Source of the DNA: Candidatus Gastranaerophilales bacterium
GTDB lineage: Bacteria > Cyanobacteriota > Vampirovibrionia > Gastranaerophilales > Gastranaerophilaceae
Direction: 5' to 3'
Assembly: GCA_944326555.1 (NCBI GenBank)
Contig: CALVEK010000002.1
Coordinates: 1 to 64,000 of the forward strand
DNA: 64,000 nucleotides
Positions 34,621 to 56,309 of this stretch are shown one piece after another. The notes beneath the pieces were generated by a model. The model did not search any database, was not told the DNA's origin, and saw nothing but the letters and a program-made list of their open reading frames with translations. The position numbers were made by a program, and so were the translations under genes. Numbering within the stretch: position 1 is the first letter of the stretch; each line of letters begins with the position of its first letter.

Positions 34621-35994
34621 TCAAAGTAATATTTGAGTACCAACCATCAATCTATGTGAATCTACCTTATTATCATTTTGGCAATATATGTAATTAAAAA
34701 TCAGTTTTAACGCCTGACCTTTAAGATAATAATTTGTACCTAAAGTATACTCTCTTTGCATATTATTAGAAACTGTTCTATCAGGATCAAACTGGTCATA
34801 CCTTGCCAAAAGCTCAAGTTTTTTTGTCAAATGATACCCGACTGTAACAAACAAGCCTTGAGAACGTTTATTTGTCAAACCGGAACCACCGTTTGAACCG
34901 TTAGCTCTCGCATATTCAAATTTTGTCCAAAAACGTTTGTAATCATAGCCGACATAAGCACCTGTAAGGTAGTAATTCATTCCATGTTTTTCACCTGATT
35001 GTATACCTCCACCGGTAACAAGTTTACCGTATCTGCCGTCAGTTTTTCCCAGTGGTTTTATATTCATCCAAGCATCAAATTCATGCCCCGGGAAAAAGGA
35101 AGTGAAATTTGTAGAAGAACTGTAAATACCCATATCGTAATCCATAAGAGAATAATCACCTCTGACTCTTACACCAAATTTTCGAATATTTGCAAGATTA
35201 CGAGATATTTGTGAACGATTAATAAAAGCTAAAGTATAAGGAGACTGAGCACCTTCTATCCCAACTCCGGGTCTTGAATTACCGACTAACACGCTTGTAT
35301 GAGGAATTCTGTGAGACTCTATATACAAATCTTGGAAAAACGGTTGCATAAAAGGCAAATGGCTGCTTCTGTGAGTAGGGTCAAGCATTATTCTGAAATT
35401 TTCTTTTCCGCCTTTAAATTGACCGTCAATAAGTATATTTATAAGGCCTACATCAAATTTAGAATCAGTATCACCACGTTCGGGAATTGTGGTCGAAAAA
35501 TTACTTTGTACAGCCGTCCAAATATGCACACTTTCAAGAGGACCTTTTTCCATTCTAAAAGTGAGTTGATCTTTTAACAATGCAGATGGGACATCGGTTC
35601 TTTCAATTTCAAGATGATACACATCTTTTGCTGTTTGAGCCAAAGAACTAAATAAAGAGAACCTTGGCGCTGCACTATCTCTCATCGGATCATATTCTGT
35701 TACACCATTTTTCAGGTCGCCATAATAACTGTCATTTTTCAAATCTTGTTCTTTAGGAGCACTAATGAATGGTCCAAAATGTCTTTCCTTGTATCTTTTT
35801 CTTGGTCCATCGACATAGACAGTATTTTCATCAATATCGATAACAGGATTGTCATCTTCATCATTTTCATCAAGAACAGTTTCTAAAAAAGAATTATTAT
35901 CTTCTGTCTTCAAGGTAATAACTTCTTGCGCCTCAACCTTTATGGCACAAAAACAAAATATTGATAATATAAAAAATAAACTAATCTTTTTCAC
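34621..35994 (-). CDS. Outer-membrane porin-like protein
   Basis: A protein of 457 residues. Signal peptide (about 1-22, ending KVEAQ), an acidic disordered segment (about 40-60, DENDEDDN), then alternating hydrophobic strands rich in aromatic residues. The middle GDTDSKFDVGLINILIDGQF and the end RLMVGTQILL fit a 14- to 16-strand barrel like phosphate-selective porins OprP/OprO. No SLH domain is present, in contrast to most cyanobacterial porins. Substrate unknown. Single gene. Confidence 0.7.
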   Translation of the reverse strand: MKKISLFFILSIFCFCAIKVEAQEVITLKTEDNNSFLETVLDENDEDDNPVIDIDENTVYVDGPRKRYKERHFGPFISAPKEQDLKNDSYYGDLKNGVTEYDPMRDSAAPRFSLFSSLAQTAKDVYHLEIERTDVPSALLKDQLTFRMEKGPLESVHIWTAVQSNFSTTIPERGDTDSKFDVGLINILIDGQFKGGKENFRIMLDPTHRSSHLPFMQPFFQDLYIESHRIPHTSVLVGNSRPGVGIEGAQSPYTLAFINRSQISRNLANIRKFGVRVRGDYSLMDYDMGIYSSSTNFTSFFPGHEFDAWMNIKPLGKTDGRYGKLVTGGGIQSGEKHGMNYYLTGAYVGYDYKRFWTKFEYARANGSNGGSGLTNKRSQGLFVTVGYHLTKKLELLARYDQFDPDRTVSNNMQREYTLGTNYYLKGQALKLIFNYIYCQNDNKVDSHRLMVGTQILL

Positions 35995-36065: not shown

Positions 36066-36974
36066 TTATTTTTGTTCTTCTGTCATTTCTTTTTCAACTT
36101 GTTCTTCTTCTTTTTTATGATCATCTCTTAAGTAAGCTGTCCAGAAAAGAAGAACGACAAATACAATAGCACCTATTATGTTACCCAAAGTAACAGGAAT
36201 AAGGTTGTTTATAAAAAGACTTTTGATATTTAAAGTAGACAATTGTTGAGCTGTCAAGCCTGATGCAGCAACAATTGAAGCTGTATGTTTTGCAAAAAGT
36301 CCGTTAGTAAGGAAAAACATATTTGCAATACTGTGTTCATACCCTGAAGCTACGAATGTCATAATAGGGAAGAAAATGGCAAATATTTTACCTATTACCA
36401 ATCTTGCAGAAGAAGCCATCCATATAGCCAAGCAAACTAACCAGTTACATAAGATACCTCTTGTAAATGCTTCAACCCAAGTCAGGTTAACTTTTTGGTA
36501 AGCAGTTGTCAGGCTCAATACGCCAAGAGCCTCATGTGAATTGTGAGAACATCCTGAATAATATATGAGCAAAGCAAGAACAACAGAACCTATAAAGTTA
36601 CCGATATAAACAATTGTCCAGTTTCTCAAAAGTTTTACAAAACTTGTTTTCTTTTCTATAACGGAAAACGTCATCATAACGTTACCTGTAAACAATTCAG
36701 CACCTGTAAGTACAACCATCATAAGACCGGTCGCAAAAGTCATTGCTCCAACAAGTTTTGCAATTCCCCAGCTCAAGTTTTCTGCAGTACCTGTCATTAC
36801 AGTCAAAGAAACCTGTGCACCAAAAGCAATTAATGCACCTGCGACAATTGCAAGTACAAATGTTTTTGATTTTCTAAAATTTGCCTTAGCCGGCATTACA
36901 TTATCTGCAAGTTCATGAGCAACACTATTAGGTGTAACGCAATCTCTTGCATCGAAAGTTTGTTGTTCAGACAT
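36066..36974 (-). CDS. Formate/nitrite transporter (FNT family)
   Basis: A protein of 302 residues with six hydrophobic segments. Motifs: GALIAFGAQVSL, TGAELFTGNVMM, FTRGILCNWLVCLAIWM and YEHSIANMFF, which carry the FNT pore residues including the His of EHSIAN. It is a pentameric channel for formate, nitrite or another small anion. Next to the hyf-like operon, which starts divergently about 300 bp away, formate is the more natural substrate. The C-terminal 25 residues are strongly charged. Confidence 0.92.
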   Translation of the reverse strand: MSEQQTFDARDCVTPNSVAHELADNVMPAKANFRKSKTFVLAIVAGALIAFGAQVSLTVMTGTAENLSWGIAKLVGAMTFATGLMMVVLTGAELFTGNVMMTFSVIEKKTSFVKLLRNWTIVYIGNFIGSVVLALLIYYSGCSHNSHEALGVLSLTTAYQKVNLTWVEAFTRGILCNWLVCLAIWMASSARLVIGKIFAIFFPIMTFVASGYEHSIANMFFLTNGLFAKHTASIVAASGLTAQQLSTLNIKSLFINNLIPVTLGNIIGAIVFVVLLFWTAYLRDDHKKEEEQVEKEMTEEQK

Positions 36975-37271: not shown

Positions 37272-39248
37272 ATGAATATTTTTTTTGTTGGAGTATTACT
37301 CCTGGTTTTAGGCGGTATTTTTACACTGTTAGTAAGTAGAAAGTATAAAGTATTTTCTGTTGCAATGTTTACTACAATTGCAACTGTTCTTTGTTTAATA
37401 CCTGCTTTGAGTTGTATTTTAGGCTCTCAAACATTTTTGTTTGGATTTGAATTAAACAAAATTTTTGGAGAAGTCAGTTTTTCGATTGATCCGCTATCAG
37501 CTTTCTTTATTATTGTAATTTCTATTATGGGACTTTGTTCTGTAATATATTCTAAGGGGTATCTTGCTCCATACATCGAAAAAAACAAAAATGTAAATTC
37601 TCATTTGATATTTTTAACATTACTGATAGCATCAATGTTACTCGTTGTAACCTGCAGCAATGCTTTAATGTTCTTGGTCTTTTGGGAAATAATGTCATTA
37701 AGTTCATTCTTCCTTGTTATATTTGAACACGAGAAAAAAGAAGTTTTGAAAGCGGGCGTAAAATATCTTGTATTTATGCACATATCCGTATTATTTATAA
37801 TGCTTGCATTTGCTCTATGCAGTTTGAAAGCAGGAAGTTTTGATTTTGCGACATTTACAAACATACTTGAATCAAATAAAAATCTTGCAACGATAGTATT
37901 TGTACTATCGTTTATAGGATTTGGAACAAAAGCGGGATTTGTACCTTTTCATAACTGGTTACCCGATGCACACCCTGCGGCACCAAGCCACGTAAGTGCA
38001 ATAATGTCAGGTGTAATGATTAAGACAGGTATCTACGGTATATTAAGAGTTTTATCACTTTGCGGCACACCAACAAAAACTATTGCTTACGGTGTCTTGA
38101 TTCTGTCAGTTATTTCCGCATTGTACGGTGTGTTATATGCAATTACACAACACGATTTAAAGAGATTACTTGCCTATCACAGTATAGAAAATATCGGAAT
38201 AATCGGCATAGGTATTGGTGTTGGTATGCTTGGAATGGCATACAACAACCCAATCGTTACAATACTTGGTTTTGCCGGTGGTATTTTACATATATTGAAT
38301 CACTCAATATTTAAAGAATTGCTGTTTATGGCAGCAGGAAGTGTATACATTAAAACTCATACAAGAAACGTTGAAATATTGGGCGGACTTATAAAAACTA
38401 TGCCGTATAGTGCCTTGCTGTTTTTAACAGGATCTGTTGCAATTTGCGGTTTACCTCCTTTCAACGGTTTTGTAAGTGAATTTCTTGTTTACTTTGGTAT
38501 GGTAAAGGGATTAGACACAAATAATTTCTTTGCTGTAGTTGTTCTGTTATTTGCAATTGCAGGATTGGCTCTTGTCGGCACAATGGCCATTTTATGTTTT
38601 ACAAAAGCATTCAGCATAGTATTTTTGGGTATGCCAAGAAGCGAAAATGCACAAAATGCAAAATCTGACAGCACATTTTCAATGTTGGCACCAATGGGAT
38701 TTCTTGCAATATTGACTCTTGTTATAGGATTGCTACCTCAATATGCATTCGAAATGGTAACTAAACCTGCATTTGTTATAACACATGCACCATCTGTTAC
38801 GTTGACAATGCCAATAGAGATAATGAAAGAAATATCGCTGTTTGCATTCGGTTTTATTGTGTTTGTTTCTGTTCTTATATTTGCAAAACTCAAATTTTCA
38901 AACAAAACCGTTTTGCACGAAACTTGGGGTTGCGGATATAACAGACCAAACTGCCACATGCAATATACGGCTTCATCTTATGCAAGTCCTTTCCTTGCAA
39001 TGCTAAGACCTCTATTCAAAAAGATTTTTGATGTAGAAAAGCCTAAAAAACTTTTCCCTAAAAATGCTCATTTTAGTTTGCATATAGATGATATAGAAGA
39101 GGCTTATGTTATCAATCCTTTGGTAAAATTTGACGAATGGTTTTTATCAAAGTTTGAAAAAATACAAAGCGGTAACATTCAATCTTACATAAAATACAGC
39201 TTAATCTTTCTGGTAATAATCATAATAGGAAGTTTGATAATTAAGTAA
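37272..39248 (+). CDS. hyfB: HyfB/NuoL-like ion-translocating membrane subunit
   Basis: An antiporter-like subunit of 658 residues with about 15 hydrophobic segments. The family signature KAGFVPFHNWLPDAHPAAPSHV carries the conserved Lys and the acidic residue near it. In complex I-like enzymes such a subunit pumps ions when electrons pass the peripheral arm. GGGATGG is a weak ribosome site. First gene of a six-gene operon (hyfBCEFGI order, hyfA, hyfD and hyfH absent). Confidence 0.9.
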   Translation: MNIFFVGVLLLVLGGIFTLLVSRKYKVFSVAMFTTIATVLCLIPALSCILGSQTFLFGFELNKIFGEVSFSIDPLSAFFIIVISIMGLCSVIYSKGYLAPYIEKNKNVNSHLIFLTLLIASMLLVVTCSNALMFLVFWEIMSLSSFFLVIFEHEKKEVLKAGVKYLVFMHISVLFIMLAFALCSLKAGSFDFATFTNILESNKNLATIVFVLSFIGFGTKAGFVPFHNWLPDAHPAAPSHVSAIMSGVMIKTGIYGILRVLSLCGTPTKTIAYGVLILSVISALYGVLYAITQHDLKRLLAYHSIENIGIIGIGIGVGMLGMAYNNPIVTILGFAGGILHILNHSIFKELLFMAAGSVYIKTHTRNVEILGGLIKTMPYSALLFLTGSVAICGLPPFNGFVSEFLVYFGMVKGLDTNNFFAVVVLLFAIAGLALVGTMAILCFTKAFSIVFLGMPRSENAQNAKSDSTFSMLAPMGFLAILTLVIGLLPQYAFEMVTKPAFVITHAPSVTLTMPIEIMKEISLFAFGFIVFVSVLIFAKLKFSNKTVLHETWGCGYNRPNCHMQYTASSYASPFLAMLRPLFKKIFDVEKPKKLFPKNAHFSLHIDDIEEAYVINPLVKFDEWFLSKFEKIQSGNIQSYIKYSLIFLVIIIIGSLIIK

Positions 39249-39274
39249 CAAAAAGGAAATTACGGGATATAAAA

Positions 39275-40192
39275 ATGCTAATTAAACTTTTAAATTTATT
39301 AATACTGTTGTTGGTTCCATTTTTAATGATGGGCGTTATAAGAAAAACAAAAGCCTTTTGGGGAGGAAGAAAGGGATGTTCTATATTCCAACCGCTATGG
39401 GATTTTACTAAATTAATAAAAAAAGACTTTGTAATAAGCAAGACGACATCTGCAGTCTTCAAAATTTCACCGGTAGTAAATCTATCTGCAGTATTGGCGG
39501 CAGCTCTACTGGTTCCAATGTCTGCAGGAACGATTATCTTAAACTTGCCTGTAGGATTTGTATTATTTGCATATATCCTTGGTTTAGGAAAATTCTTTTC
39601 TCTGATTTCTGCAATGGATACGGGAAGCAGTTTTGAAGGTATGGGAGCATCAAGAGAGGCTTGTTTTACAACAATCGTTGAACCTGCATTTTTCATTGTA
39701 ATAGCTTCAATTATGGCAATGACAGGTAACGTTACTTTTGACAGCCTTTCCAAAATATTCACTAACACAGGAAGTTACGGTATATTGATTGCAATATTTG
39801 CAGTTGTTGCATTATTTTTAATGATATTAATCGAAGGCTCCAGAGTTCCGGTTGATGATCCTACAACTCACCTTGAATTAACAATGATTCATGAGGTAAT
39901 GATTCTGGATAATTCGGCTTTGGATTTAGCTTTGTTTAGCTGGGCAAATTCAATAAAAATGCTATTAATATCATCATTAATAGCAAACATCATAATACCA
40001 AGCTCATTGAGCCAATGGGCATCTGTTTTACTATATTTGTTTGTCATTTTTGCAATCTCTGTGATAATCGGAACCATAGAATCCGGAATGGCAAGAATAA
40101 GAATGTCTCACGTTTTTGAATTTGTTTTTGTAATGAGTTCATTCGCTCTTGTTGTTTTATCATTGGTAGTTGCAAGGATGTTTGGAGGTTAA
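39275..40192 (+). CDS. hyfC: HyfC/NuoH-like membrane subunit
   Basis: A protein of 305 residues with about eight hydrophobic segments. It belongs to the NuoH/EchB family. KAFWGGRKGCSIFQPLWDF and EGSRVPVDDPTTHLELTMI match the loops next to the large subunit. It anchors the peripheral arm to the membrane in complex I-like complexes. It lies 26 bp after hyfB and 6 bp before hyfE. Confidence 0.92.
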   Translation: MLIKLLNLLILLLVPFLMMGVIRKTKAFWGGRKGCSIFQPLWDFTKLIKKDFVISKTTSAVFKISPVVNLSAVLAAALLVPMSAGTIILNLPVGFVLFAYILGLGKFFSLISAMDTGSSFEGMGASREACFTTIVEPAFFIVIASIMAMTGNVTFDSLSKIFTNTGSYGILIAIFAVVALFLMILIEGSRVPVDDPTTHLELTMIHEVMILDNSALDLALFSWANSIKMLLISSLIANIIIPSSLSQWASVLLYLFVIFAISVIIGTIESGMARIRMSHVFEFVFVMSSFALVVLSLVVARMFGG

Positions 40193-40198
40193 TAAAAA

Positions 40199-40864
40199 AT
40201 GGAAAACGGATTTATAATACTTTTCGGGCTTACAATGCTATACCTTGCGGCAACAAGCAGGATAGTAGCCCACATAAGACTTTTGATAGCACAGGGTATT
40301 TTACTGTTTTTAATATGCTGTTGCAACATGAATCATATTTTAGGAATCCATATGAAATGGTTAAATTTCGGATTCTTGGTTGTAGAAACTTTGATTGTAA
40401 AAGCTATTATTATTCCTTGGTTTTTGTATAGAGTCTTAAAAAAGACAAATGCAAACAGAGATATTGCAGCTAACGTACCTCATTTTTATTGCTTGGTAAT
40501 TGCCAGTGTAATACTGATGGCGGGTTTTCTTGTTTCAAACTATTTTATCTCATCAGTAAAAATGATATCTCCGATATATTTCGGAGTATCCGTTGCAACA
40601 ATAATAATAAGTTTATGGCTTATCACAATTAAACACAAAATTATTTCAAACGTAATTGAGTTTATTACAATGGAAAACGGTATATTCTTACTTTCGCTTT
40701 CTGTAGCAAAAGAAATGCCGATACTTGTAAACATGGGTGTACTGCTTGATGTATTTATTGCAGTATACATACTTGGTTTGTTTGTGAACGTAATTAACAA
40801 AGAATTTAAAGACCTCGAAGTGTCTAATTTATCAGATTTAAAGGACTATGAATACAATGATTAA
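40199..40864 (+). CDS. hyfE: HyfE-like membrane subunit
   Basis: A protein of 221 residues with six to seven hydrophobic segments. The second half resembles NuoK (MENGIFLLSL is the recurrent HyfE phrase). It carries the small antiporter-associated module of group 4-type complexes. It overlaps hyfF by 17 bp. Confidence 0.85.
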   Translation: MENGFIILFGLTMLYLAATSRIVAHIRLLIAQGILLFLICCCNMNHILGIHMKWLNFGFLVVETLIVKAIIIPWFLYRVLKKTNANRDIAANVPHFYCLVIASVILMAGFLVSNYFISSVKMISPIYFGVSVATIIISLWLITIKHKIISNVIEFITMENGIFLLSLSVAKEMPILVNMGVLLDVFIAVYILGLFVNVINKEFKDLEVSNLSDLKDYEYND

Positions 40865-42302
40865 AACTATTTTATTATTTCCGATAGTTGCCGGCATATT
40901 AATGCTGTTATTCAGAAAAAGATTTATAGACAATCTTTTACTAAACATATACGCATTTTTGCATTTTGCAATAACGCTTTTTCTGGTATTTGGCAACAAA
41001 CTGTACCAAGGCACATATTTTGCTGTAGATAATACAAATAAGATATTTCTGTTAATACTGTCATTTGTATTTTTGATGGTAACGCTGTATAACAACGGTT
41101 ACTCCAAGAGTCTTCCATCTTTCGGAGTACAGGTAGGAGACAAAAAAATATGTCTGTATTGGTTTATGACACTTGCTTTTGTTTGGGCAATGACAGGAAC
41201 CGTACTTACAACTGACTTGGGTATTGCGTGGGTATTTATAGAAGCAACTACACTATCAAGTGCTTATTTAATATTTTTCCATAGGACAAAAACAGCAATC
41301 GAAGCAGCGTGGAAATATGTATTTATCTGTTCTATAGGTATTGCTCTTGCATTTGTAGGTATAATCTTTTTGAACGTATCAACAGGAGATATTAACTCAC
41401 TTAGTTACAATGTACTGTACAATAATGCACCAATGTTTGATATTTTCTGGCTAAAAACAGCCTTTGTCTTTATACTTTTTGGCTTTGGTGCCAAAATGGG
41501 TCTTGCACCAATTCACTTTTGGCTGCCTGATGCTCACTCAGAATCACCATCTCCTATTTCTGCATTATTGTCAGCAACATTATTAAACTCGGCATTTCTT
41601 GTTATTGTTAGAGTATTTAAATTGATGACTATAGCAAATTGTGATGAATATGCAAGAATAATGATGCTTGTAATGGGATTTTTATCATTATTTGTAACGG
41701 CTGTTTTTGTTTATCATATAAAAAATTACAAAAGAATGCTCGCATATTCTTCTATTGAGAATATGGGAATCCTTGCGATAGGTACAGCGTTGGGCGGTGT
41801 AGGATATATTGCAGTAATGCTCCACTTAATAGGACATTCGCTTGCAAAAGCATCTTTCTTTTTAACATCAGGAAATATTCTTGAATTGTTTGAAACAAAA
41901 AGAATAAAATCAGTAAACGGGCTTATAAAAGCAGACGGAAAGACAGGTTGGCTATGGATGTTTTCTATGCTTGCGATATGCGCATTTCCAACTTCAGTTC
42001 TTTTCATAAGTGAATTTTTAATTGTCAAAACAATGATTTCCCAAAAACATTATATACTCTGCGTATTGTTCTTGTTATTACTCACAGTTGTATTATATGG
42101 AATAGGCAGAGTAGTTATAAAAATGGCCTTTGGTGAAATCAGCGAAGACAAGGTAAAAATTCTGGAAGAAAATAAAACAAAATTATCAGCATTTATGTAC
42201 ATTCCTCAATTCATTATGCTAATAATTGTATTTATTCTAGGTGTATATGTACCACCATTCTTAAATAACATAATCAGCTGTGCCTCAGCAGCTTTATACT
42301 AA
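40848..42302 (+). CDS. hyfF: HyfF/NuoN-like ion-translocating membrane subunit
   Basis: A second antiporter-like subunit of 484 residues, with about 13 hydrophobic segments. KMGLAPIHFWLPDAHSESPSP mirrors the signature of HyfB. AAAGGACT precedes the ATG. Two such subunits, with HyfC and HyfE, make a full membrane arm. Confidence 0.9.
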   Translation: MNTMIKTILLFPIVAGILMLLFRKRFIDNLLLNIYAFLHFAITLFLVFGNKLYQGTYFAVDNTNKIFLLILSFVFLMVTLYNNGYSKSLPSFGVQVGDKKICLYWFMTLAFVWAMTGTVLTTDLGIAWVFIEATTLSSAYLIFFHRTKTAIEAAWKYVFICSIGIALAFVGIIFLNVSTGDINSLSYNVLYNNAPMFDIFWLKTAFVFILFGFGAKMGLAPIHFWLPDAHSESPSPISALLSATLLNSAFLVIVRVFKLMTIANCDEYARIMMLVMGFLSLFVTAVFVYHIKNYKRMLAYSSIENMGILAIGTALGGVGYIAVMLHLIGHSLAKASFFLTSGNILELFETKRIKSVNGLIKADGKTGWLWMFSMLAICAFPTSVLFISEFLIVKTMISQKHYILCVLFLLLLTVVLYGIGRVVIKMAFGEISEDKVKILEENKTKLSAFMYIPQFIMLIIVFILGVYVPPFLNNIISCASAALY

Positions 42303-42338
42303 ATATTTAATATTCAAAAATTTTGAAGGATAAAAAAT

Positions 42339-43805
42339 ATGACAAATTGGGTAAAAACAAAAAACAATACAAAAATAAATCTTGCAGATATTCCTGTATT
42401 AGATATAGAAAATTTAAGGACAGAAGTTAAAGCACTTAACAAAAGACCTGTTGCTTTTTTCGGGAAAGATTGGGGAAATGGAAACGTAAGACTGTTTGTT
42501 ATTCTGGCAGATGACACATCGGGAGATTTGTATGTAAGTTCTACAATTTTTGGGAATCTTCAAAAATCTTATGAATCATTTACACAAGATATTCCATCAT
42601 TCCACATCTTTGAAAGAGAATTCTATGAAGATTTTGGTATTGAACCATTACATCATCCTTGGTTAAAACCTGTAAGAAAGAATCAAGATGATTACACATT
42701 TTTTGAAATGCAAGGTGAAGAAGTCCATCAGGTAGCTGTTGGACCAATACACGCAGGAGTAATAGAACCTGGACATTTTAGATTTATGTGTAACGGAGAA
42801 ACTGTTTATCACCTTGAAATAATGCTTGGATATCAGCACAAAGGTGTTGAAGAATTGATGTTGAAAAAGCACTCCAATCAATTGGCAGAGTCAATTGTGG
42901 GAGACAGCGTAATAGCCTACAATACTGCGTATTCACAGATTGTTGAAACACTTAAAGATATAAAAATTTCAGACAAAGCACAGTTAATAAGAAAACTTGC
43001 TCTCGAAATGGAAAGAGCAGCTATTCACATAGGAGATTTAGGTGCAATTGCAGGAGATATTGCATACCTTATGGGGGCATCGGTTTTTGGCGCAACAAGA
43101 ACTCTTGTCATAAATACAATGCTTGAATTTTGCGGAAGCAGATTCGGAAGAGGATTTGTTACGGTTGGCGGAGTTAATTTTGACTTGTCTGATGAAATTA
43201 TGGAAAAAGCCAAAAAAACATTAGACAAAGTTGAAAAAGATGTAGACAGAATGGTTAAAACAATGCTCAAAAACTCAAGTGTTATGTCTCGTCTTGAAAA
43301 AACAGGTACTGTAAGTACAGAAAGAGCAATGGAAACTGGTCTTGTTGGTATGGCAGCAAGAGCATCAGGCGTACCGATTGATTCAAGATTCGACTATCCT
43401 GACAAATGGATGGAAAAATTGAATATAAACAAAAAAGTTTTCAACGGTATTGGTGATGTAAACTCTAGATTTAAACTCAGATACAAAGAAATAAAAGAAT
43501 CTCTTGATATCATCAGAAAAATATTTAAAGAATTAAAAAATCTAAAATCAGAGCCCGTTTTAACATACTCTGATAACGACTTTACAAAAGACTCCTTTGC
43601 TATATCAATAGTCGAAGGTTGGAGAGGAGAAGTTGTTCACATTGCAATGACCGATGACAACGGAAAGTTATCCAGATATAAGATTAAAGATCCTTCATTT
43701 AACAACTGGTTCGGTCTTGCGCTTGCCGTAAGGAATAACGGAGTGTCAGATTTTCCGCTTTGCAACAAGAGCTTCAATCTCTCATATTCGGGCAACGATT
43801 TATAA
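42339..43805 (+). CDS. hyfG: HyfG-like large subunit lacking NiFe-site cysteines (Ehr type)
   Basis: A protein of 488 residues: NuoC-like N-terminus (about 1-115), then a NuoD/hydrogenase large-subunit domain. GPIHAGVIEPGHFRF and EIMLGYQHKGVE are group 4 signatures. Where NiFe enzymes read CGIC, this one reads VGDS (about residues 187-190). The C-terminal DPCxxC pair is DPSFNNW. With both cysteine pairs missing, no NiFe centre can form, as in Ehr complexes. Catalytic partner unknown; its redox chemistry is not hydrogen cleavage. Confidence 0.88.
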   Translation: MTNWVKTKNNTKINLADIPVLDIENLRTEVKALNKRPVAFFGKDWGNGNVRLFVILADDTSGDLYVSSTIFGNLQKSYESFTQDIPSFHIFEREFYEDFGIEPLHHPWLKPVRKNQDDYTFFEMQGEEVHQVAVGPIHAGVIEPGHFRFMCNGETVYHLEIMLGYQHKGVEELMLKKHSNQLAESIVGDSVIAYNTAYSQIVETLKDIKISDKAQLIRKLALEMERAAIHIGDLGAIAGDIAYLMGASVFGATRTLVINTMLEFCGSRFGRGFVTVGGVNFDLSDEIMEKAKKTLDKVEKDVDRMVKTMLKNSSVMSRLEKTGTVSTERAMETGLVGMAARASGVPIDSRFDYPDKWMEKLNINKKVFNGIGDVNSRFKLRYKEIKESLDIIRKIFKELKNLKSEPVLTYSDNDFTKDSFAISIVEGWRGEVVHIAMTDDNGKLSRYKIKDPSFNNWFGLALAVRNNGVSDFPLCNKSFNLSYSGNDL

Positions 43806-43825
43806 AAAACAAAAAGGAAATAACT

Positions 43826-44599
43826 ATGCTAGATACACTAAAATCAAGAATATATCAGGGAAAACAATTTATAAAAGATATACAAAATGCTCCAATGAGA
43901 GACCAATTTAGAGGTTTTCCTATATTAAAAAATGCAAATAATGTTGATTTGCAAAAATGTGTAGATGTTTGCCCAACAGGTGCAATAAAATTGAACCCTC
44001 TGTCTATAGATATGGGCAAATGTACATTCTGTAGTGCTTGTAAGAATGCTTGCAAAAATTTTTGTAACTCAGACGCAATTGATTTTTCTAATTATTACAA
44101 ATTATCATCAACAAAACGTGAAAATTTGATAATAACAGAAAACATGACACCTGAAGATTACGAAAAAGTCGCAATCGAAACAAGAAAAGAAATTACATCG
44201 GTATTTTCAAAATCACTAAAACTAAGACAAGTATCAGCAGCCGGCTGCAACGGTTGCGAAATGGAATTAAATGCTTGCTCTAACGTAAACTTTGATATGG
44301 GTCGTTTTGGTATTGATTTTGTAGCATCACCAAGACACGCTGACGGAATTGTTATAACAGGTCCAATATCAAAGAACATGGCTTATGCTCTGGAAGACTG
44401 CTACAAATCCGTTCCTGACCCCAAAATAGTCATACTTTGCGGAGCTTGTGCAATTTCAGGTGGTGTTTACCAAGAAGCATCAGAAATAAACAGAGAATTC
44501 CTCGATAAATACAACATTGATTTATATATACCGGGATGTCCTGTTCATCCTCTAACATTTATCAACGGAGTATTGAGCTTTATCAGAGATAAAAAATAA
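43826..44599 (+). CDS. hyfI: HyfI-like small subunit fused to a ferredoxin domain
   Basis: A protein of 257 residues. The N-terminal ferredoxin part (about 44-85) has CVDVCP, with two cysteines, then a full CTFCSACKNAC motif. One [4Fe-4S] cluster can be built but probably not two. The C-terminal NuoB-like part keeps all ligands of the proximal cluster: CNGCE, CGACAISGG and PGCP. The start at 43826 (AAAAGGAAAT upstream) is preferred over the longer frame overlapping hyfG. Together with HyfG it makes a peripheral electron arm. Terminator follows. Confidence 0.88.
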   Translation: MLDTLKSRIYQGKQFIKDIQNAPMRDQFRGFPILKNANNVDLQKCVDVCPTGAIKLNPLSIDMGKCTFCSACKNACKNFCNSDAIDFSNYYKLSSTKRENLIITENMTPEDYEKVAIETRKEITSVFSKSLKLRQVSAAGCNGCEMELNACSNVNFDMGRFGIDFVASPRHADGIVITGPISKNMAYALEDCYKSVPDPKIVILCGACAISGGVYQEASEINREFLDKYNIDLYIPGCPVHPLTFINGVLSFIRDKK

Positions 44600-44687: not shown

Positions 44688-45038
44688 CTACTCACAAACA
44701 TGCTCGAGTGCTTTTTCCAAAATACTTTTTACATGGTAATCATCCAAAGCGTAATAAACATTTTTCCCCCTTTTGTGAGAGCGCACCAGTTTTGCAGTCC
44801 TCAAAACTTTTAACTGATGAGAAACCGCCGACTTTGTCATATTCAACAACACAGCCAAATCTCCAACGCACATTTCACTCTCTTCTAACGCCCACAAAAG
44901 CTGGATACGGGTGCCATCGCCCATCACTTTAAAAAAGTCCGAAAGTTCGTACAACAAACTCATCTCAGGCATTTTGGGTCTCACCTGATTAACAAGTTCT
45001 AAATTAATAGCTTCGCAATCTGATTTTTTTATATCCAT
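44688..45038 (-). CDS. ArsR/SmtB-family metal-sensing repressor
   Basis: A protein of 116 residues with a winged helix, TKSAVSHQLKVLRTAKLVRSHKRG being the recognition part. The C-terminal DDYHVKSILEKALEHVCE has the spacing D-x-H-x10-H-x2-E of the SmtB/CzrA alpha-5 zinc site. The alpha-3 segment MCVGDLA keeps one Cys only, so a CadC-type cadmium site is incomplete. Zinc or cobalt sensing is therefore likeliest. It diverges from the P1B ATPase gene, with operators between. Confidence 0.9.
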   Translation of the reverse strand: MDIKKSDCEAINLELVNQVRPKMPEMSLLYELSDFFKVMGDGTRIQLLWALEESEMCVGDLAVLLNMTKSAVSHQLKVLRTAKLVRSHKRGKNVYYALDDYHVKSILEKALEHVCE

Positions 45039-45044
45039 AAATTA

Positions 45045-45077
45045 ATTATACCATAATTGAATAGTTGCTCAACTATG
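45045..45077 (-). promoter_or_regulatory. Promoter of arsR-type gene with operator 1
   Basis: On the minus strand TTGAGC is followed after 16 bp by TATAAT near 45045-45050. Operator 1, TTGAATAGTTGCTCAA (45057-45072), covers the spacer and part of the -35, which predicts autorepression. Confidence 0.65.
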
Positions 45078-45108
45078 TAACAAAATAATAAGAAATCATT
45101 TATCTCAC

Positions 45109-45164
45109 TTGACAGTTGAACAGTTGCTCAATTATACTAATAATATAATTGAATAATTATTCAA
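45109..45164 (+). promoter_or_regulatory. Promoter of P1B ATPase with operators 2 and 3
   Basis: TTGACA (45109-45114), 18 bp, TATACT (45133-45138). Operator 2, TTGAACAGTTGCTCAA (45116-45131), fills the spacer. Operator 3, the perfect palindrome TTGAATAATTATTCAA (45149-45164), lies just after the predicted start. Both match operator 1. Blocked in metal-free cells, open when the sensor binds metal (established for the family). Confidence 0.8.
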
Positions 45165-45177
45165 CTGTGAGGTAATT

Positions 45178-47100
45178 ATGTGTCATAATCATGAACATTC
45201 AGCTTGCTGTGAAGAACATTCACACAACCATTCAACAGATAAAAAGACAATATTTAGAATTATTATTTCAATCTTACTGTTATCATCAGCATTATTTTTT
45301 AATCCTGCAAGCGCAATAAAAACATCAATTATAATTTTTGCATATCTGCTTGCCGGAGGAGATATATTACTAAAAGCAATCAAAAATATCTTAAGCAAAG
45401 ATATTTTTGATGAAAATTTTTTGATGAGCATAGCTACCATAGGTGCTGTTATTCTTGGAGAGTATCCCGAAGCAGCAATGGTAATGATTCTATATCAGAC
45501 GGGAGAATTTTTACAAAGCCAAGCTGTAAAAAAATCAAAAAAATCGATATCCGAATTAATGAATATAAGACCGGATTACGCAAATATAGAAAATAGTGAT
45601 GGAACAACAAAAAAAGTTGCACCTCAAGAAGTAAAAATTAATGATATAGTTCTTGTCAAAGCAGGAGAAAAAATACCATTGGACGGTATTATCACAGATG
45701 GCTACGCAATAATAGATACAAGAGCGCTAACAGGAGAATCTGTTCCAACAAAGGTTAAAGAAGGAGATTCAGTTATTAGCGGATGCATAAACACAAACGG
45801 ACTGATAAAAATCAAAGTAACAAAATCTTTTAAAGAATCAACTGTATCTAAAATATTAAAATTAGTAGAAGAAGCAGGCGAAAGAAAAACAAAAACAGAA
45901 AACTTTATAACAAAATTTGCAAAATACTACACTCCTATAGTAGTTTTGCTAGCTTTATTACTGACAATCATTCCACCAATCTTTACTGGCATAACATTAC
46001 AAAACTTTCAAATATGGGGATATAGAGCATTAATTTTCCTTGTTATCTCCTGTCCTTGTGCATTAGTTATATCTATTCCTCTCAGCTTTTTTGCAGGCAT
46101 TGGAGCCGCATCTAAAAACGGTATTTTAATAAAAGGCAGCAGTTTTATAGAAAGACTTGCGCACACTAATACTATAATTTTTGATAAAACAGGTACACTA
46201 ACAAAAGGCGTATTTGAAGTAGTAAAGGTCGTACCTTTTAACGGAATTGAAAAACAAAATTTGATAGAACTAGCCGCAAAAGCAGAACATTACTCAAATC
46301 ACCCTATCGCTTTATCTCTAAAACAAGCATACAAAAATAATGAAACAGAAACAGAATCCATATTCCAAATAGCAAATATGGAAGAAATTGCAGGCAAAGG
46401 TATCAAAGCTCAAATTGATAACAAGATAATTCTTGTCGGCAACAATGAATTAATGACAGAATATGCTATTTCATACAAACAATCTCAAGAAGCAGGCACT
46501 ATAGTACATGTTGCAAGAATAACAGACGATGAAAAATTGTACTTGGGCTACATTGTCATTTCAGACAAACTTAAAGAAGATACAATCCCTGCAATAAATT
46601 CAATAAAAAAACAAGTAAAAGAATTGATAATGCTAACAGGCGACTCTACAAGTACAGCAGAGAATATATCTAAAAAAACAGGAATAACAAAATTCTACGC
46701 AGAACTCTTACCGTCAGACAAAGTAACAAAGGTTGAAGAGATAATGGCAAAAAGCACTAACAAAGATTCTGTAATTTTTGTTGGTGATGGAATTAACGAT
46801 GCACCTGTTTTAACAAGAGCAGATATTGGCATAGCAATGGGAGCCCTTGGATCTGACGCAGCAATTGAAGCATCTGATGTCGTTATAATGGATGACAAAT
46901 TATCAAAAATATCTACACTATTAAAGATATCTAAAAAAACAATGAAAATAGCTAAAGAAAATATTGTTTTTGCAATAGGCGTTAAGATTATATTCTTAGT
47001 CCTTGGTGCTATAGGCGTTATGACAATGTGGGGTGCTGTTTTTGCAGATGTTGGCGTTACATTGGTCGCTGTTTTAAATGCATTAAGAATTCTAAAATAA
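45178..47100 (+). CDS. P1B-type heavy-metal exporting ATPase (CadA/ZntA-like)
   Basis: A protein of 640 residues. The metal-transport motif is SCPCALVISIP, phosphorylation DKTGTLTKG, ATP-binding HPIA and the hinge GDGINDAP. The CPC motif and C-terminal membrane pair point to Zn2+, Cd2+ or Pb2+ efflux. The N-terminus has no HMA domain with CxxC; instead, its first 21 residues carry five His and three Cys as a metal-binding tail. GAGG precedes the ATG. Regulated by the divergent ArsR-type repressor. Confidence 0.93.
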   Translation: MCHNHEHSACCEEHSHNHSTDKKTIFRIIISILLLSSALFFNPASAIKTSIIIFAYLLAGGDILLKAIKNILSKDIFDENFLMSIATIGAVILGEYPEAAMVMILYQTGEFLQSQAVKKSKKSISELMNIRPDYANIENSDGTTKKVAPQEVKINDIVLVKAGEKIPLDGIITDGYAIIDTRALTGESVPTKVKEGDSVISGCINTNGLIKIKVTKSFKESTVSKILKLVEEAGERKTKTENFITKFAKYYTPIVVLLALLLTIIPPIFTGITLQNFQIWGYRALIFLVISCPCALVISIPLSFFAGIGAASKNGILIKGSSFIERLAHTNTIIFDKTGTLTKGVFEVVKVVPFNGIEKQNLIELAAKAEHYSNHPIALSLKQAYKNNETETESIFQIANMEEIAGKGIKAQIDNKIILVGNNELMTEYAISYKQSQEAGTIVHVARITDDEKLYLGYIVISDKLKEDTIPAINSIKKQVKELIMLTGDSTSTAENISKKTGITKFYAELLPSDKVTKVEEIMAKSTNKDSVIFVGDGINDAPVLTRADIGIAMGALGSDAAIEASDVVIMDDKLSKISTLLKISKKTMKIAKENIVFAIGVKIIFLVLGAIGVMTMWGAVFADVGVTLVAVLNALRILK

Positions 47101-48274: not shown

Positions 48275-49210
48275 TTAATCTTCAAAAAGGTCATAAAAAT
48301 GGTAAAACTGTAGTGGGGCAATATTTACCATTTTTTCGAGAAAACTCACATACTCGTCTTGCATTTTTTTTAGGTTCTGTTTTTTATTAAACTGAGTGTT
48401 TAGCTCAAATTTTTCAAGATAAATTTTATACCTATCGTGTTTTTCTTTCACAGCACAAATAAAAAATACTATTTGCTCCGTTAATTGTGCAAGTTTAAAA
48501 GTTCCGGTCGGAAACTGTACAACTTGATTTAAAAAATTTGCGCTAAATACTATATTTGAAGACCCTGCAGATAATCTATCTCCTGCCATAAAGGCAATCT
48601 CACCATTTTCCAACCGTTCTTGAATTTCTATTGCTGTTCCTGCATTAATTTGTTCCACAGGAAAAGTTGAAAGATTCTGTGTAGCATCAATTTTTTTTAA
48701 AAAGCCGTTAAAGACCTTACAATGGTCCTCACTTAGAAAAACATTAACTCTCGGATTAAGAGGCCATATACCGTTTTTGGGGTTAGCAATGAAGGTTCTT
48801 AAAACATCTATATTTCCAATATGAGAACACAAAAAGAACATTCCTTTTTGCTCTTTAAACAACTGAATAAACAGTTCCTTCTCTTCTGTATTTGCAAAAT
48901 CTATTTTTTCAATATCATATTTTTTTGCAAACGTCTCCATCTTGTCAACAAGAGAAAGTGCATAGTTCAAAACATTCTTGTACTGATTTAGCATTGTGGG
49001 TTTTGCATTTTTATTTTTTGTGAATTTATATATGACACTCAAATTTTTCTTTGAATATCTTCTCACATTCGGCGCAAATGCAAATGTAAAAAATGAAACA
49101 AAAACAGCTATAAGCTGCAAAGCTCTTTTCCCAAGAATTTTGTACACAAACCAAGAAACAATTAAACGTCTTTCCCCCGCAGCTTGTTCTTTAAGCTGAT
49201 ACCATCTCAT
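48275..49210 (-). CDS. LpxL-like acyltransferase of the polyene cluster
   Basis: A protein of 311 residues of the lipid A acyltransferase (LABLAT) family. The HX4D motif is HIGNID. N-terminal hydrophobic anchor at about 30-48. In APE clusters such an acyltransferase (compare ApeJ) links the aryl-polyene acyl chain to a lipid or sugar; here the glycosyltransferase half usually fused to it is missing. It overlaps the methyltransferase gene by 20 bp, so they are co-translated. Confidence 0.75.
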   Translation of the reverse strand: MRWYQLKEQAAGERRLIVSWFVYKILGKRALQLIAVFVSFFTFAFAPNVRRYSKKNLSVIYKFTKNKNAKPTMLNQYKNVLNYALSLVDKMETFAKKYDIEKIDFANTEEKELFIQLFKEQKGMFFLCSHIGNIDVLRTFIANPKNGIWPLNPRVNVFLSEDHCKVFNGFLKKIDATQNLSTFPVEQINAGTAIEIQERLENGEIAFMAGDRLSAGSSNIVFSANFLNQVVQFPTGTFKLAQLTEQIVFFICAVKEKHDRYKIYLEKFELNTQFNKKQNLKKMQDEYVSFLEKMVNIAPLQFYHFYDLFED

Positions 49211-50291
49211 CTTTTACACACTCCAACAAAGTGTAATCATACTTGCCAATATTATAGTATGTTTTTTGTACTTTAAGACCTGAATCTTTAACAAGTTCTT
49301 TCATGTCAGTTTCTTTGTACATTTTACTGCAGCCGTTTGCCATACAAGTAAAGTAAAGAGAAATGTGAGTTAGAGAATATGCTGCACCGGAATACTCTTG
49401 GTTATCAATAAACGGCTCCAAAATATAAATTTTTGTTTTATCAGAAGAAGCCTTTGCCACTTTCTTTAAAATAAATTTTATTTGTTCCTTTGAAAAACAA
49501 TCCAAAAACTGACTCATAAAAAACGCATCAGGAGTATTTTCAAAACTTAAATTAGCCGAAGAAAGAATATCGCTTGACAAAAAGCTACATCTTGAATCGG
49601 CAAATAAGTTTTTAATTTTTTCAATATTTTCAGGCAAATCAACCATAATCAAGTTACAATTTTTGTCATATTCAAGACAAGCATGTTCAAACTTTCCGGT
49701 ATTGCCACCAATATCACAAATATATTTTGGATTATTTTCAAAAATAATTTTTAAAACCTCACCAAAACAATCATCAGAATAATGATGATCAAACTCATAC
49801 CAGCTTTTTTGCATAACAGGATTGAGCTTTGTCAAAATATGATAAATTGTCGGCGTTTCAAAAAAGTATTTTTGAAGCCCAACAGGTCTACTCTCTTTAA
49901 AAGACTCAATCAACTCACTTGCGCCAAGATAGCAAATATCTCGCATAAAATTAAAGTTCATCTTCGTCATTTCATCAAACAAAAATGCCTCTGCAAGTTT
50001 TGTATTATAAAAAATATTATTTTCATCTTCACTTACAAGACCAATACAAATTGCAGCTTCAAAAAGGGCATCAAAGGTATACTCAGAAATATTGCACGCA
50101 TCAATAATTTGCTTCTTGGTTTTCGGAGATTCATTCAACGAAGAAAAAACACCAAACTCGAGCATTGCGGCAACGACCTGAAAAGTAAATGGAGCAAACG
50201 CAATCTTTTGTGCTTCAGTAAGAGAATCTACAGTTTTGGAACTGCCTCTTTGTCTCCTTTTATATTTAAATTTTGTTGATTTTTCTTCCAT
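49191..50291 (-). CDS. SAM-dependent O-methyltransferase of the polyene cluster
   Basis: A protein of 366 residues of the Methyltransf_2 type: an N-terminal winged-helix dimerisation domain (about 20-110), then the SAM fold with CDIGGNTGKFEHACL (motif I) and IMVDLPE. In aryl polyenes it could methylate the 4-hydroxyl of the aryl head or the ring (compare ApeB). It starts 20 bp from the divergent PPTase gene. A TATAAT lies 12 bp before the ATG and no ribosome site is visible. Confidence 0.8.
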   Translation of the reverse strand: MEEKSTKFKYKRRQRGSSKTVDSLTEAQKIAFAPFTFQVVAAMLEFGVFSSLNESPKTKKQIIDACNISEYTFDALFEAAICIGLVSEDENNIFYNTKLAEAFLFDEMTKMNFNFMRDICYLGASELIESFKESRPVGLQKYFFETPTIYHILTKLNPVMQKSWYEFDHHYSDDCFGEVLKIIFENNPKYICDIGGNTGKFEHACLEYDKNCNLIMVDLPENIEKIKNLFADSRCSFLSSDILSSANLSFENTPDAFFMSQFLDCFSKEQIKFILKKVAKASSDKTKIYILEPFIDNQEYSGAAYSLTHISLYFTCMANGCSKMYKETDMKELVKDSGLKVQKTYYNIGKYDYTLLECVKDEMVSA

Positions 50292-50311
50292 AGTGCAATT
50301 AAAATTATATC

Positions 50312-51022
50312 ATGGATAATATAAAAATATTTTTTATAGATAAAAGAAAATGGATAAACAATGTTAATCCTGATTCATTAAAATATTTTCTTGAAAACAG
50401 AACATTTAAGTCCCAAAAAAGACTCGAAGAATTTTGTCTTGGGCGATTTTTACTAAAATATGTACTAAAAAATTACTACAATATAAACACGCCCCAAATA
50501 ACAATTGAAAACAATAAACCCAAATTAGAATCAAACAAAATATTTTTTAGCATATCTCACTCAAAAGACATAGTTCTTGTCGCTCTTTTTAACAAAAACA
50601 TAGGTGTAGATGTTGAGCAACTCAAAGACAGAGACTATGCAAGACTATTTGAATACTACAAAATAAAGCCCAAAAAGATTAACAAAATATCTTTCTACAA
50701 ATTTTGGACAGAATATGAAGCAAAAATAAAACTACAAGATAATGCCAAAAGCATTTGCACTATGAAATTTTTAAATGACTATATGTTATCACTTGCAATC
50801 TCTGACTCCTCCTGCGGAGATATCAGCAAAATGCTCAATATATACGAGCTTATAAGCCCTAATGACAATATCAACCCCAAAGAACTTATCAATTTAAAAC
50901 TTGTCATAGAAAGCAAGAAAAATGAAAACACTGTTGTAGCACAAGAAATTAGCACAGCCCAGTTTGATTTTATCCTTAATGAAGAAGATTCTTTAACAAA
51001 ATTAAATCTGAATATAGAATAA
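50312..51022 (+). CDS. 4'-phosphopantetheinyl transferase (Sfp type)
   Basis: Loads the 4'-phosphopantetheine arm onto carrier proteins. Motifs: FFSISHSKD, GVDVEQ and the catalytic FWTEYEAKIKL (about 130-142). The core ends about residue 165 (DYMLSLAIS). The last 70 or so residues lie antisense to the 3' end of the exporter gene (overlap 50779-51022) and look unlike a domain, so a lost stop codon is probable. It presumably serves the two ACPs of this cluster. Only plus-strand gene of the left arm. Confidence 0.88.
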   Translation: MDNIKIFFIDKRKWINNVNPDSLKYFLENRTFKSQKRLEEFCLGRFLLKYVLKNYYNINTPQITIENNKPKLESNKIFFSISHSKDIVLVALFNKNIGVDVEQLKDRDYARLFEYYKIKPKKINKISFYKFWTEYEAKIKLQDNAKSICTMKFLNDYMLSLAISDSSCGDISKMLNIYELISPNDNINPKELINLKLVIESKKNENTVVAQEISTAQFDFILNEEDSLTKLNLNIE

Positions 51023-53004
51023 TCCAAACTGAATCCTACAATCAAAAACAATGCCAAAATATGGAAAAAGTTTATATCCTGATTAAAGAAACTCAAAACT
51101 CCTATAACAACCACCCCTGAGAGGACAGAAGGCATTATTAACTTAACAGCATTCTTTGGCTTGTATATAATCGATAACAAAAGCAAAAGAACAAGTATTG
51201 CAGGTATAATCAACTTCAAACAAGATTCTCTGCATGCTCTGACTTTATCAGATATATCTTTTTTCAAATCAACAAACTCAACCGATGGGTTTTCACTTTT
51301 GACTTTAGCAACAAAATCTCTTGATGGCTGAGTCATCATAATTATTACAGACACCCTATCTTGTAAAAGAAAGTCATTGATAATAGGAATTTTTATATTT
51401 TCAATGGTTATAAAACCTCTTCTTGGTTTTTGTTTCTTTATTTCATTTCTTTTTGCAGCTGGCAAAAAACTGGCATAAGAATCAAGTTCACTATTATAAA
51501 GATAATTAATAAGCTCTCTATTTCTTTTTTGCTGCTTTATGGACGGAACAAATTTGCTCAAAGCAAAAAAATCTTTTTGGTTAAGCAAATGCGTAATTGC
51601 CTCCTCTTTTTCCAACAAATCTTGATTATCATTCCCTTTTACAATAAAAAATGTCGGAGTCTCAGATGTTTTGTTAAGAGTGGAGTAAAGTTTTTCTGCA
51701 TTAGCCAAATTTTGCGGAGGCCTGTACATATCCTTTATTTCGTCATTAAATTTCAATTTAAAAAATCCAATTACAATAACCAGAATTAATAAAGAGACTA
51801 TTATTTTCTTGTATTTAGGAGCTATGGGATGTAGATAGAATGATAAATCTAAATTTATTGTATCCGTTTCAATTTTCTTACAAAGTACCGGATAAAAAAG
51901 AATTACAAAAAGATATACAAAAACCAATCCACCAGCCGTAAATACAGCTATTTGCCTTAGTAATTCCATATTAGAAAACAAAAGAACCAAAAAAGCACTA
52001 ACCGTAGTCAGCATACTCATTGTTAAACTTTTAAGAATTTTTGAGATGTCCTTGTCATGAGAAAAATAATGCAAAGAATAATCAACACATATACCGATTA
52101 AAGTAGTGGAAAAAACAAATGTCAAAATATGTATTGACTTAAAGAATAAAGAAGTCAAAAGATACCCAAATAACATTCCCAAAGCCAAACTAACAAAAAC
52201 AGGTATTAGAATTTTGTATGAACGAAAATAGAATTTACAGATGAGTATTATAAAAAGAGCTGACAAAACACAAATTATATTTATCTCTTTCATCGATTTT
52301 GAGCTTGCATAAAAAGTATGTATTGGCGAACCTGTTATATAGATATTTACATTATTATTCTCTTTAACAAGTTTATTTCTTGCCTTTATAATTTTTTTCA
52401 TCTCTGTATTTAAAAGCGACGGAGAAAGAGCAATTTCTTCTTTAAAATTGAATTTTGATACTGCATAATACTTTCCGTCAAGTTCTGTCAATTCACCTGC
52501 ATAAGGAGACTCTAACATACTCAAAAAATCGCTAAATAGCATAAACGGGTCTTCTTCAATCGGCAAAAGATTTATACCTAAAGGATTGTATAATCTCTCG
52601 AGACTTTCCAGTTTTAATAGTTCCAAATTACCATCAACGATATTTCTTTCCGTATTTATGGACAATAAATTCCTGTTATAGTACTTGTATGTATTTAAAA
52701 GCTCAGAAATCTCAGCACCGGAAGAAAAATCTTTTCTAAAAGCACTACTATCACTCAGTTTTAAGAACTTTTTTTGAACGGTTTCGATGCTATCAATATC
52801 TTCCGACTCAAAAATAACATTGAATCGGCCAGAATGCTTTTGGCTCATATTGACCAACAACTCATCCTGCGGACTATCAGATAATATTGCATTCAAAATA
52901 TTAGTTTGATTTTCGGGTGGATGATTGCATACAAAGGCAAGTATCAGAAAGAAAATGATACAAAAAACAACCCTTAGTACATTAATAAAAACATTCTTTT
53001 TCAT
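50779..53004 (-). CDS. apeM: RND/MMPL-family exporter (ApeM-like)
   Basis: A protein of 741 residues. An N-terminal membrane helix, a large periplasmic loop (about 30-225), five helices, a second periplasmic loop (about 420-600) and the C-terminal helix set give the duplicated MMPL layout. DYSLHYFSH and DYSIFRFNFVK are the paired helix-4 motifs. It moves the polyene lipid across the inner membrane (inference from position). It lies 3 bp after the lolA-like gene. Its 3' end overlaps the PPTase gene. Confidence 0.85.
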   Translation of the reverse strand: MKKNVFINVLRVVFCIIFFLILAFVCNHPPENQTNILNAILSDSPQDELLVNMSQKHSGRFNVIFESEDIDSIETVQKKFLKLSDSSAFRKDFSSGAEISELLNTYKYYNRNLLSINTERNIVDGNLELLKLESLERLYNPLGINLLPIEEDPFMLFSDFLSMLESPYAGELTELDGKYYAVSKFNFKEEIALSPSLLNTEMKKIIKARNKLVKENNNVNIYITGSPIHTFYASSKSMKEINIICVLSALFIILICKFYFRSYKILIPVFVSLALGMLFGYLLTSLFFKSIHILTFVFSTTLIGICVDYSLHYFSHDKDISKILKSLTMSMLTTVSAFLVLLFSNMELLRQIAVFTAGGLVFVYLFVILFYPVLCKKIETDTINLDLSFYLHPIAPKYKKIIVSLLILVIVIGFFKLKFNDEIKDMYRPPQNLANAEKLYSTLNKTSETPTFFIVKGNDNQDLLEKEEAITHLLNQKDFFALSKFVPSIKQQKRNRELINYLYNSELDSYASFLPAAKRNEIKKQKPRRGFITIENIKIPIINDFLLQDRVSVIIMMTQPSRDFVAKVKSENPSVEFVDLKKDISDKVRACRESCLKLIIPAILVLLLLLSIIYKPKNAVKLIMPSVLSGVVVIGVLSFFNQDINFFHILALFLIVGFSLDYSIFRFNFVKESSSLRIKSNWAVLISCATTVFSFFLLSMTSFKLISSLGLILSLGLISSYILSILLISPQEESEIASDNI

Positions 53005-53007
53005 AAA

Positions 53008-53550: not shown

Positions 53551-53963
53551 TTATTATATTCCTCTATTTTTTTTAAAAATTTTTCTGATGCATTGTAAAG
53601 AGAGCTTTTACTAGTTATATCAACTCTTATCTGCATACTTTTAGCTTTAAAAAGTTTTTCCCCTGTCGTTTTATCACTTATAAAATAGCTAATTACCATA
53701 GCAGGCTCTAACTCTTCCAATACCGTTTTTACGACTAGTTTTTGTTTAAAATGTGCAGGTTTTATATATTTTAGCTCCATAGTAGCAACAGGATATGCCG
53801 AATTATCCTCACGCATATCATCATAGGTATAGCCGATTTGTTCCAACATATTACATCGTGCTGCCTCAAGATATTTTATGTAATTACCATGCCAGACCAC
53901 ATTCATTGGGTCCAAATCATAAAATTCAACTTCTGTTTCGTAAAATGTTGTTATCTTTTTCAT
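53547..53963 (-). CDS. apeK: Hot-dog acyl thioesterase (ApeK-like)
   Basis: A protein of 138 residues of the 4-hydroxybenzoyl-CoA thioesterase/YbgC family. The motif YDLDPMNVVWHGNYIKYLEAA carries the catalytic Asp. It may release or proofread acyl chains from carriers. The start at 53963 (MKKITTF) is chosen; a TTG 33 bp upstream inside the ligase gene is an alternative, since neither has a strong ribosome site. Confidence 0.82.
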   Translation of the reverse strand: MKKITTFYETEVEFYDLDPMNVVWHGNYIKYLEAARCNMLEQIGYTYDDMREDNSAYPVATMELKYIKPAHFKQKLVVKTVLEELEPAMVISYFISDKTTGEKLFKAKSMQIRVDITSKSSLYNASEKFLKKIEEYNK

Positions 53964-53979
53964 ACTTATTAATCTTATA

Positions 53980-56033: not shown

Positions 56034-56038
56034 TATTG

Positions 56039-56293: not shown

Positions 56294-56309
56294 TTTTTTC
56301 CTTTAATTA

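Follow-up and report, generated by a model that had tools for sequence, protein, structure and literature searches.

What does a hydrogenase-like membrane complex do once its nickel-iron site is gone? The question is raised by a six-gene operon, HyfB-C-E-F-G followed by a fused HyfH-HyfI, which open reading frames and family matches place at 37272-44599 of the window, the whole stretch of 64,000 nucleotides that was analysed. The window lies in a 2.08 Mb host genome that is 99.6% complete and has its relatives in the Gastranaerophilales / Melainabacteria, so that the host is a cyanobacterial relative living in the gut; host gene content was checked one family after another. The preliminary description had read the operon as a Hyf-like complex of the Ehr type, without a NiFe site, and the large subunit and neighbouring small subunit on which it drew are both present as intact open reading frames (Table 1). 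For the fusion gene, inspection of the ribosome-binding region and the start codon put the beginning at ATG 43826. This set and order of genes recurs in related genomes within the order and class (some loci ending at contig ends). One scan of species genomes yielded at least 568 confirmed Ehr loci, the best 80 of which cover more than ten phyla (Bacteroidota, Planctomycetota, Lentisphaerota, Verrucomicrobiota, Spirochaetota, Myxococcota and others) and mostly share the gene set and order of the window. Within the host genus the operon is patchy, occurring in 6 of 23 genomes, and a plasmid megablast gave no match.

Table 1. Positions of the operon genes, the altered ligand sites and the divergent channel gene within the window.
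Feature	Position	Strand	Basis
FNT, FocA-type formate/nitrite channel	36066..36974	-	PF01226, 262 bits; divergent from HyfB
HyfB-like antiporter-like membrane subunit	37272..39248	+	NCBIfam hydrogenase 4 subunit B, 577 bits, below cut-off
HyfC (NuoH)-like membrane anchor	39275..40192	+	PF00146; acidic residues conserved
HyfE-like membrane subunit	40199..40864	+	hydrogenase 4 membrane subunit, weak, 58.8 bits, below cut-off
HyfF-like antiporter-like membrane subunit	40848..42302	+	PF00361; 34% identity to E. coli HyfF
HyfG (EhrL)-like large subunit	42339..43805	+	PF00346, PF00329; ligand columns; model matches HycE
VGDS, HyfG residues 187-190, in place of CGIC	42897..42908	+	alignment
NLSYSGNDL, HyfG residues 480-488, in place of DPCYSCTDR, at the protein end	43776..43802	+	alignment
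HyfH-HyfI fusion (EhrS-like)	43826..44599	+	PF01058 and Fer4 families; Cys census

Other genes of the window surround the operon. Immediately behind it (44688-47100) come genes for an ArsR-type regulator and a P-type ATPase for heavy metals of the Zn/Cd type, and acyltransferase-, methyltransferase-, MMPL-, acyl-carrier- and ketosynthase-like reading frames at 48275-61651 resemble, by eye, an aryl-polyene-like cluster, homologues of whose genes adjoin the FNT gene in two other genomes (G006 and G016). A SulP-family anion transporter (62698-64000, + strand; sulP 167 bits, below cut-off) runs off the window end.

HyfG consists of a NuoC-like N-terminal part followed by a NuoD/HycE-like part without NiFe ligands, and aligns with HycE of Escherichia coli formate hydrogenlyase over 415 residues. 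Its AlphaFold model (mean pLDDT 91) finds its best structural match in HycE (7z0s_E, Z 43.2, 472 residues, 2.5 A), in agreement with the earlier statement that the family fold is kept. In the alignment, HycE Cys241, 244, 531 and 534 correspond to V187, S190, S482 and G485, which bears out the proposed replacement of CGIC by VGDS. The second replacement had been misplaced: DPSFNNW, taken for an altered DPCxxC, is a conserved upstream motif that aligns with ATYANW in HycE, EPTFPNL in MbhL and APSFVNL in Nqo4, and the distal pair proper lies in NLSYSG, opposite DPCYSC (within SFNLSYSGNDL of HyfG and SLDPCYSCTDR of HycE). The claim that both ligand pairs are replaced stands nonetheless, as all four cysteines are gone.

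This loss is shared by the family. Among 96 relatives, the C1 position is occupied by Ala (63), Cys (19), Ser (7), Val (4) or Thr (3) and the C2 position by Thr (68), Ser (22), Ala (4) or Glu (2), while C3 is Ser and C4 is Gly in 96/96. The window HyfG has no ligand cysteine and no relative has more than one; L023, 74% identical to the window protein, reads CGDS at the proximal site. A close relative with its NiFe cysteines restored, named beforehand as the case that would overturn the reading, thus did not occur, and the loss of ligands, shared throughout the family, is no sequencing error. Asp-Leu forms the C-terminal end in 96/96 proteins, aligned at HycE Arg537, and HycE is 32 residues longer. 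Neither a PF00374 match nor HypD (PF01924), the one Hyp protein searched for, was found in the host genome, which agrees with the expected absence of maturases. Lacking the four ligand cysteines, HyfG is by its predicted sequence not a group 4 NiFe hydrogenase large subunit. We predict that the complex cannot bind nickel-iron and hence cannot make or use hydrogen; the preliminary conclusion that it cannot split hydrogen is upheld because all four ligands and the maturation tail are lost.

The pocket left behind was compared using the residues named in a structure paper on formate hydrogenlyase (PMC9474812). HyfG keeps the loop Glu (HycE E193, HyfG E143), the canopy Arg (R478, R429) and the proton path (HycE H284, E437 and R395; HyfG H230, E384 and R341). 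The canopy Asp, HycE D529, is Asn480 in the window and Asn in 81/96 relatives. D189 is invariant among the relatives, and the tail NKSF(N/D)LSYxGxDL is found nearly throughout. These kept and invariant residues indicate that the pocket is constrained rather than decaying. A decaying, non-functional hydrogenase would account for the missing NiFe ligands and the patchy distribution in the genus, but the reading frames of all six window genes are intact, numerous positions do not vary at all among relatives spanning more than ten phyla, and such patchiness resembles gain and loss of a working module; we find this explanation scarcely credible.

Quinone reduction in the manner of complex I is suggested by membership of the same superfamily and by the HyfG fold, which also resembles subunits of the NuoD type (Z about 39-41). 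At the positions of the complex I quinone residues, Nqo4 H38 and Y87 in Thermus numbering (PMC7684303), HyfG has Ile142 and Gly188, and the proximal cysteines are spaced CxxC rather than adjacent. Further against a quinone, the host genome has no MenG/UbiE above the cut-off (only such matches were counted, since the search cross-matches other methyltransferases), a point that would not touch demethylmenaquinone, for which MenG/UbiE is not needed. A quinone reductase is highly improbable on these grounds. The sole above-cut-off MenG/UbiE in the host genus (G004:C55:3637-4266) represents quinone capacity or contamination. Judged by its predicted residues, the pocket suits neither hydrogen nor quinone chemistry, and its invariant signature supplies residues to test.

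Electrons could reach this pocket through the HyfH-HyfI fusion, the model of which (mean pLDDT 93.6) matches HycG in its NuoB part. The cysteine census found all four proximal cluster ligands (C141, C144, C208 and C238) and all four inner-ferredoxin ligands (C49, C66, C69 and C72), a complete [4Fe-4S] ligand set, and the proximal CNGC motif aligns to MbhJ without gaps, at full length. The outer ferredoxin cluster has lost two of its four cysteines (N39, L42), and the earlier statement that the small subunit keeps its Fe-S ligands therefore holds for the proximal and inner clusters and fails for the outer one. Among 79 relatives, 77 keep the four inner cysteines and 62 the proximal set. In 16 Bacteroidota loci (L058, L060, L067, L070, L074, L075, L077, L078, L080, L089, L090, L091, L108, L112, L115 and L116), the proximal ligands are instead Asp, (mostly) Cys, Asp and Asn, with the rest of the domain and the HyfG signature conserved. 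Their HyfG proteins group together on a single branch (SH-aLRT 100) that also takes in one unscored row, and the complexes of this clade should lack the proximal cluster too. The missing cysteines imply that electrons do not flow to the pocket in every member of the family, and the clade provides the chief evidence against a simple electron-to-pocket model that would hold for the family as a whole. No report of it was found in the part of the literature covered, and its members are natural variants to test.

Such variants bear on the idea that the pocket hosts no redox chemistry at all, the complex instead transporting cations or acting as a conformational machine, with its ferredoxin cluster in a regulatory role. 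Loss of the outer cluster in the window and of the proximal one in the Bacteroidota clade, together with a conserved pocket and inner cluster, would fit. Retention of complete proximal and inner cysteine sets in the window, and of the proximal set in most relatives, speaks against it, and we consider it unlikely.

The membrane arm had been described as complete. HyfB, C, E and F are indeed present with conserved channel charges, and HyfD is absent from the operon. HyfB is 34% identical to E. coli HyfB; its E139, K220, K251 and E403, as well as HyfF E132, K216 and K295 and many acidic residues of HyfC, are conserved with E. coli Hyf. Both antiporter-like subunits, HyfB and HyfF (PF00361), lie in the same operon as the large and small subunits, as in an Ehr complex. 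From the conserved clusters and membrane charges, electron passage and ion pumping are plausible. The ATP synthase operon of the window, recognised by eye at 7476-12544 (-), has a c-subunit (11570-11815, confirmed by family match) without the Gln and Ser of what we take to be the Na+ motif, so H+ coupling of that enzyme is likely.

What the pump would work on is hinted at by the divergent channel gene, which the preliminary description had offered as a clue and which proved the strongest one. The FNT protein belongs to PF01226 and has FocA as its nearest solved structure (193 bits, against about 88 for HSC and NirC); against the FocA equivalog model it scores 263 bits, under the threshold of 290. 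It is a candidate for formate conduction. FNT channels carry other anions besides formate. A literature search on LCIA/FocA selectivity returned nothing.

FNT co-occurs with Ehr across the order. In a sample of 286 Gastranaerophilales genomes, 68 of 87 Ehr-positive genomes have FNT against 1 of 199 Ehr-negative ones (68 both, 19 Ehr only, 1 FNT only, 198 neither; Fisher p = 6e-47, which ignores the relatedness of the genomes). Of the 23 genomes in the host genus, the same 6 carry both, and the within-genus tables of ten genera point the same way, although the combined figure is indicative, as the strata hold only genomes with a genus listed. FNT similarity follows Ehr type. The two lie on different contigs in 42 of the 68 genomes and are separated by about 10-140 kb in a further 7; for the 19 genomes in which they are nearest, coordinates and strands place FNT divergent from the operon. 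Adjacency alone is therefore no explanation, though contig breaks could hide some nearness. The single FNT among the Ehr-negative genomes (L123, G048:C10:66434-67024) is short, divergent and 32% identical to that of the window. Pyruvate-formate lyase (PFL) was rejected as the reason for FNT, since the channel is found in 0/72 genomes with PFL and without Ehr; it is found in 21/31 with Ehr and without PFL. FNT follows Ehr rather than PFL, largely regardless of the latter.

Ehr could nevertheless be a ferredoxin-driven ion pump with FNT outside its reaction, the pair united by shared lifestyle or joint gain and the acceptor unrelated to formate-like anions. The 19 Ehr-positive genomes without FNT count against coupling and favour this account, as does the absence of an FNT beside Ehr in other phyla (among the best 80 of the at least 568 species-genome loci), and the close neighbourhood of the two in 19 genomes makes joint transfer possible. 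Opposed to it are the near-absence of FNT without Ehr, the independence from PFL, the frequent lack of linkage and the agreement of ten genera. We hold it to be possible, if doubtful.

Neighbouring genes were also considered as partners. A Porin_O_P-like outer-membrane protein adjoining FNT (34621-35994, -) has its gene immediately after HyfHI in G006, G016 and genus g9; it was rejected as a third partner as it is a common lineage gene, present in 51 of 59 sampled relatives, most Ehr-less ones included. SulP genes near Ehr (L061, L076, L105) were set aside as anion partners because the loci are too few; the one scanned, from L061, scored best as DauA-type, below cut-off. In 22 loci of other phyla (L051, L052, L057, L061, L064, L071, L076, L082, L086-L088, L094, L096-L098, L101, L103, L105, L109-L111 and L113), a gene belonging to one and the same cluster lies near HyfB, usually directly upstream. 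In the scanned case it encodes a protein with HTH_17 and PTS_EIIA_2, a possible dedicated regulator.

We favour an Ehr complex that acts as a ferredoxin-driven ion pump, with a small anionic substrate or product crossing the membrane via the FocA-type channel, a reading about evenly poised between right and wrong. Reduced ferredoxin would donate electrons via the inner ferredoxin and proximal clusters to a metal-free pocket between HyfG and HyfI. There a small substrate would be reduced with proton uptake, driving ion export through HyfB and HyfF, and the substrate or product would be a small monovalent anion that passes through the co-inherited channel. Ferredoxin as donor is inferred from three FeFe-hydrogenase-family genes in the host genome, which suggest ferredoxin metabolism. 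Ehr is widespread, and its co-inheritance with FNT in the Gastranaerophilales is a specific and testable hint on the substrate; the channel accompanies Ehr even in cells that have no known means of making or using formate, and this offers a concrete handle on function.

Formate is the leading candidate for the substrate or product, still unproven, since Ehr turns up time and again alongside genes for formate or growth on it. The E. coli hyf operon has focB at its end. Ehr is reported to be more abundant in Geobacter grown on formate than under conditions with hydrogen (PMC7894505), and Margulis- and Saganbacteria that bear Ehr are reported to have fdhA (PMC6349859). At one locus (L040:13697-16846), in a genome without FNT, genes for PFL and the enzyme that activates it follow downstream of Ehr at a distance of about 1.5 kb. 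Family searches of the host genome found no PFL and no PF00384-type oxidoreductase, so a source or use of formate is not evident there. A bolder reading makes Ehr and the FocA-type channel a two-part energy-conserving system: the former NiFe pocket would itself turn over a small one-carbon anion (formate/CO2 or similar) with ferredoxin and would need no Mo, W or Ni, while the channel would move the anion across the membrane. This appears quite improbable.

Among known systems, E. coli Hyf (hydrogenase 4) and FHL/Hyc share with the window homologues of HyfB, C, E, F, G, H and I, the HyfG/HyfI fold and the proton path. The window operon differs in lacking HyfA, HyfD, HyfJ and HyfR, in the fusion of HyfH with HyfI, and in the loss of the NiFe cysteines and C-terminal tail. 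The predicted formate hydrogenlyase of Mycobacterium tuberculosis (Rv0081-Rv0087) has a similar subunit set and a HycE-like protein of about 490 residues. Complex I (NuoB, C, D, H and L/M/N core) shares fold and core subunits, whereas the window operon has neither the quinone residues nor an NADH module.

Pyrococcus MBS, as described in PMC7684303, is likewise a ferredoxin-linked relative without a working NiFe site, and among the relatives that lack NiFe it alone has a known reaction. This invites the proposal that the window complex reduces sulfane sulfur (polysulfide) and that FNT exports hydrosulfide. By the same description, however, the MBS proximal motif is three residues shorter, three cysteines bind the cluster and one iron is left open, and MBS has no loop Glu equivalent to MbhL E21, whereas the window has a four-cysteine motif and keeps E143. 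The FNT, moreover, is FocA-type, not HSC-type. MBS-type sulfur chemistry appears unlikely in the window complex because its CNGC motif is full length with four cysteines, and the proposal with hydrosulfide export is very improbable.

The closest counterparts are the Ehr complexes described in Melainabacteria, Margulis- and Saganbacteria (PMC6349859), Geobacter (GSU0739-0745; PMC7894505) and comammox Nitrospira (PMC10284858). As described, they too are group 4-like and without NiFe ligands, with NuoL-like and HyfE-like membrane subunits and large and small subunits. Ligand loss, operon composition, tree position and the lack of HypD and PF00374 in the host all agree with the Ehr identity first proposed. 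In the HyfG tree, the family of the window protein forms a branch apart from HycE, HyfG, MbhL and NuoD (SH-aLRT 100), and since the tree has long branches (L035, MbhL), we claim no deep placement between hydrogenases and complex I. Assignment to Ehr, within the superfamily of complex I and group 4 hydrogenases, is supported by this match to the published descriptions. Neither FNT co-inheritance nor loss of the outer ferredoxin cluster was found in the passages covered of those descriptions, and the partial literature covered held no report of Ehr-FNT co-inheritance. We conclude that the window complex is a further member of the Ehr group, already published for Melainabacteria among others (PMC6349859), and that what is new here is the co-occurrence of Ehr and FNT across the Gastranaerophilales.
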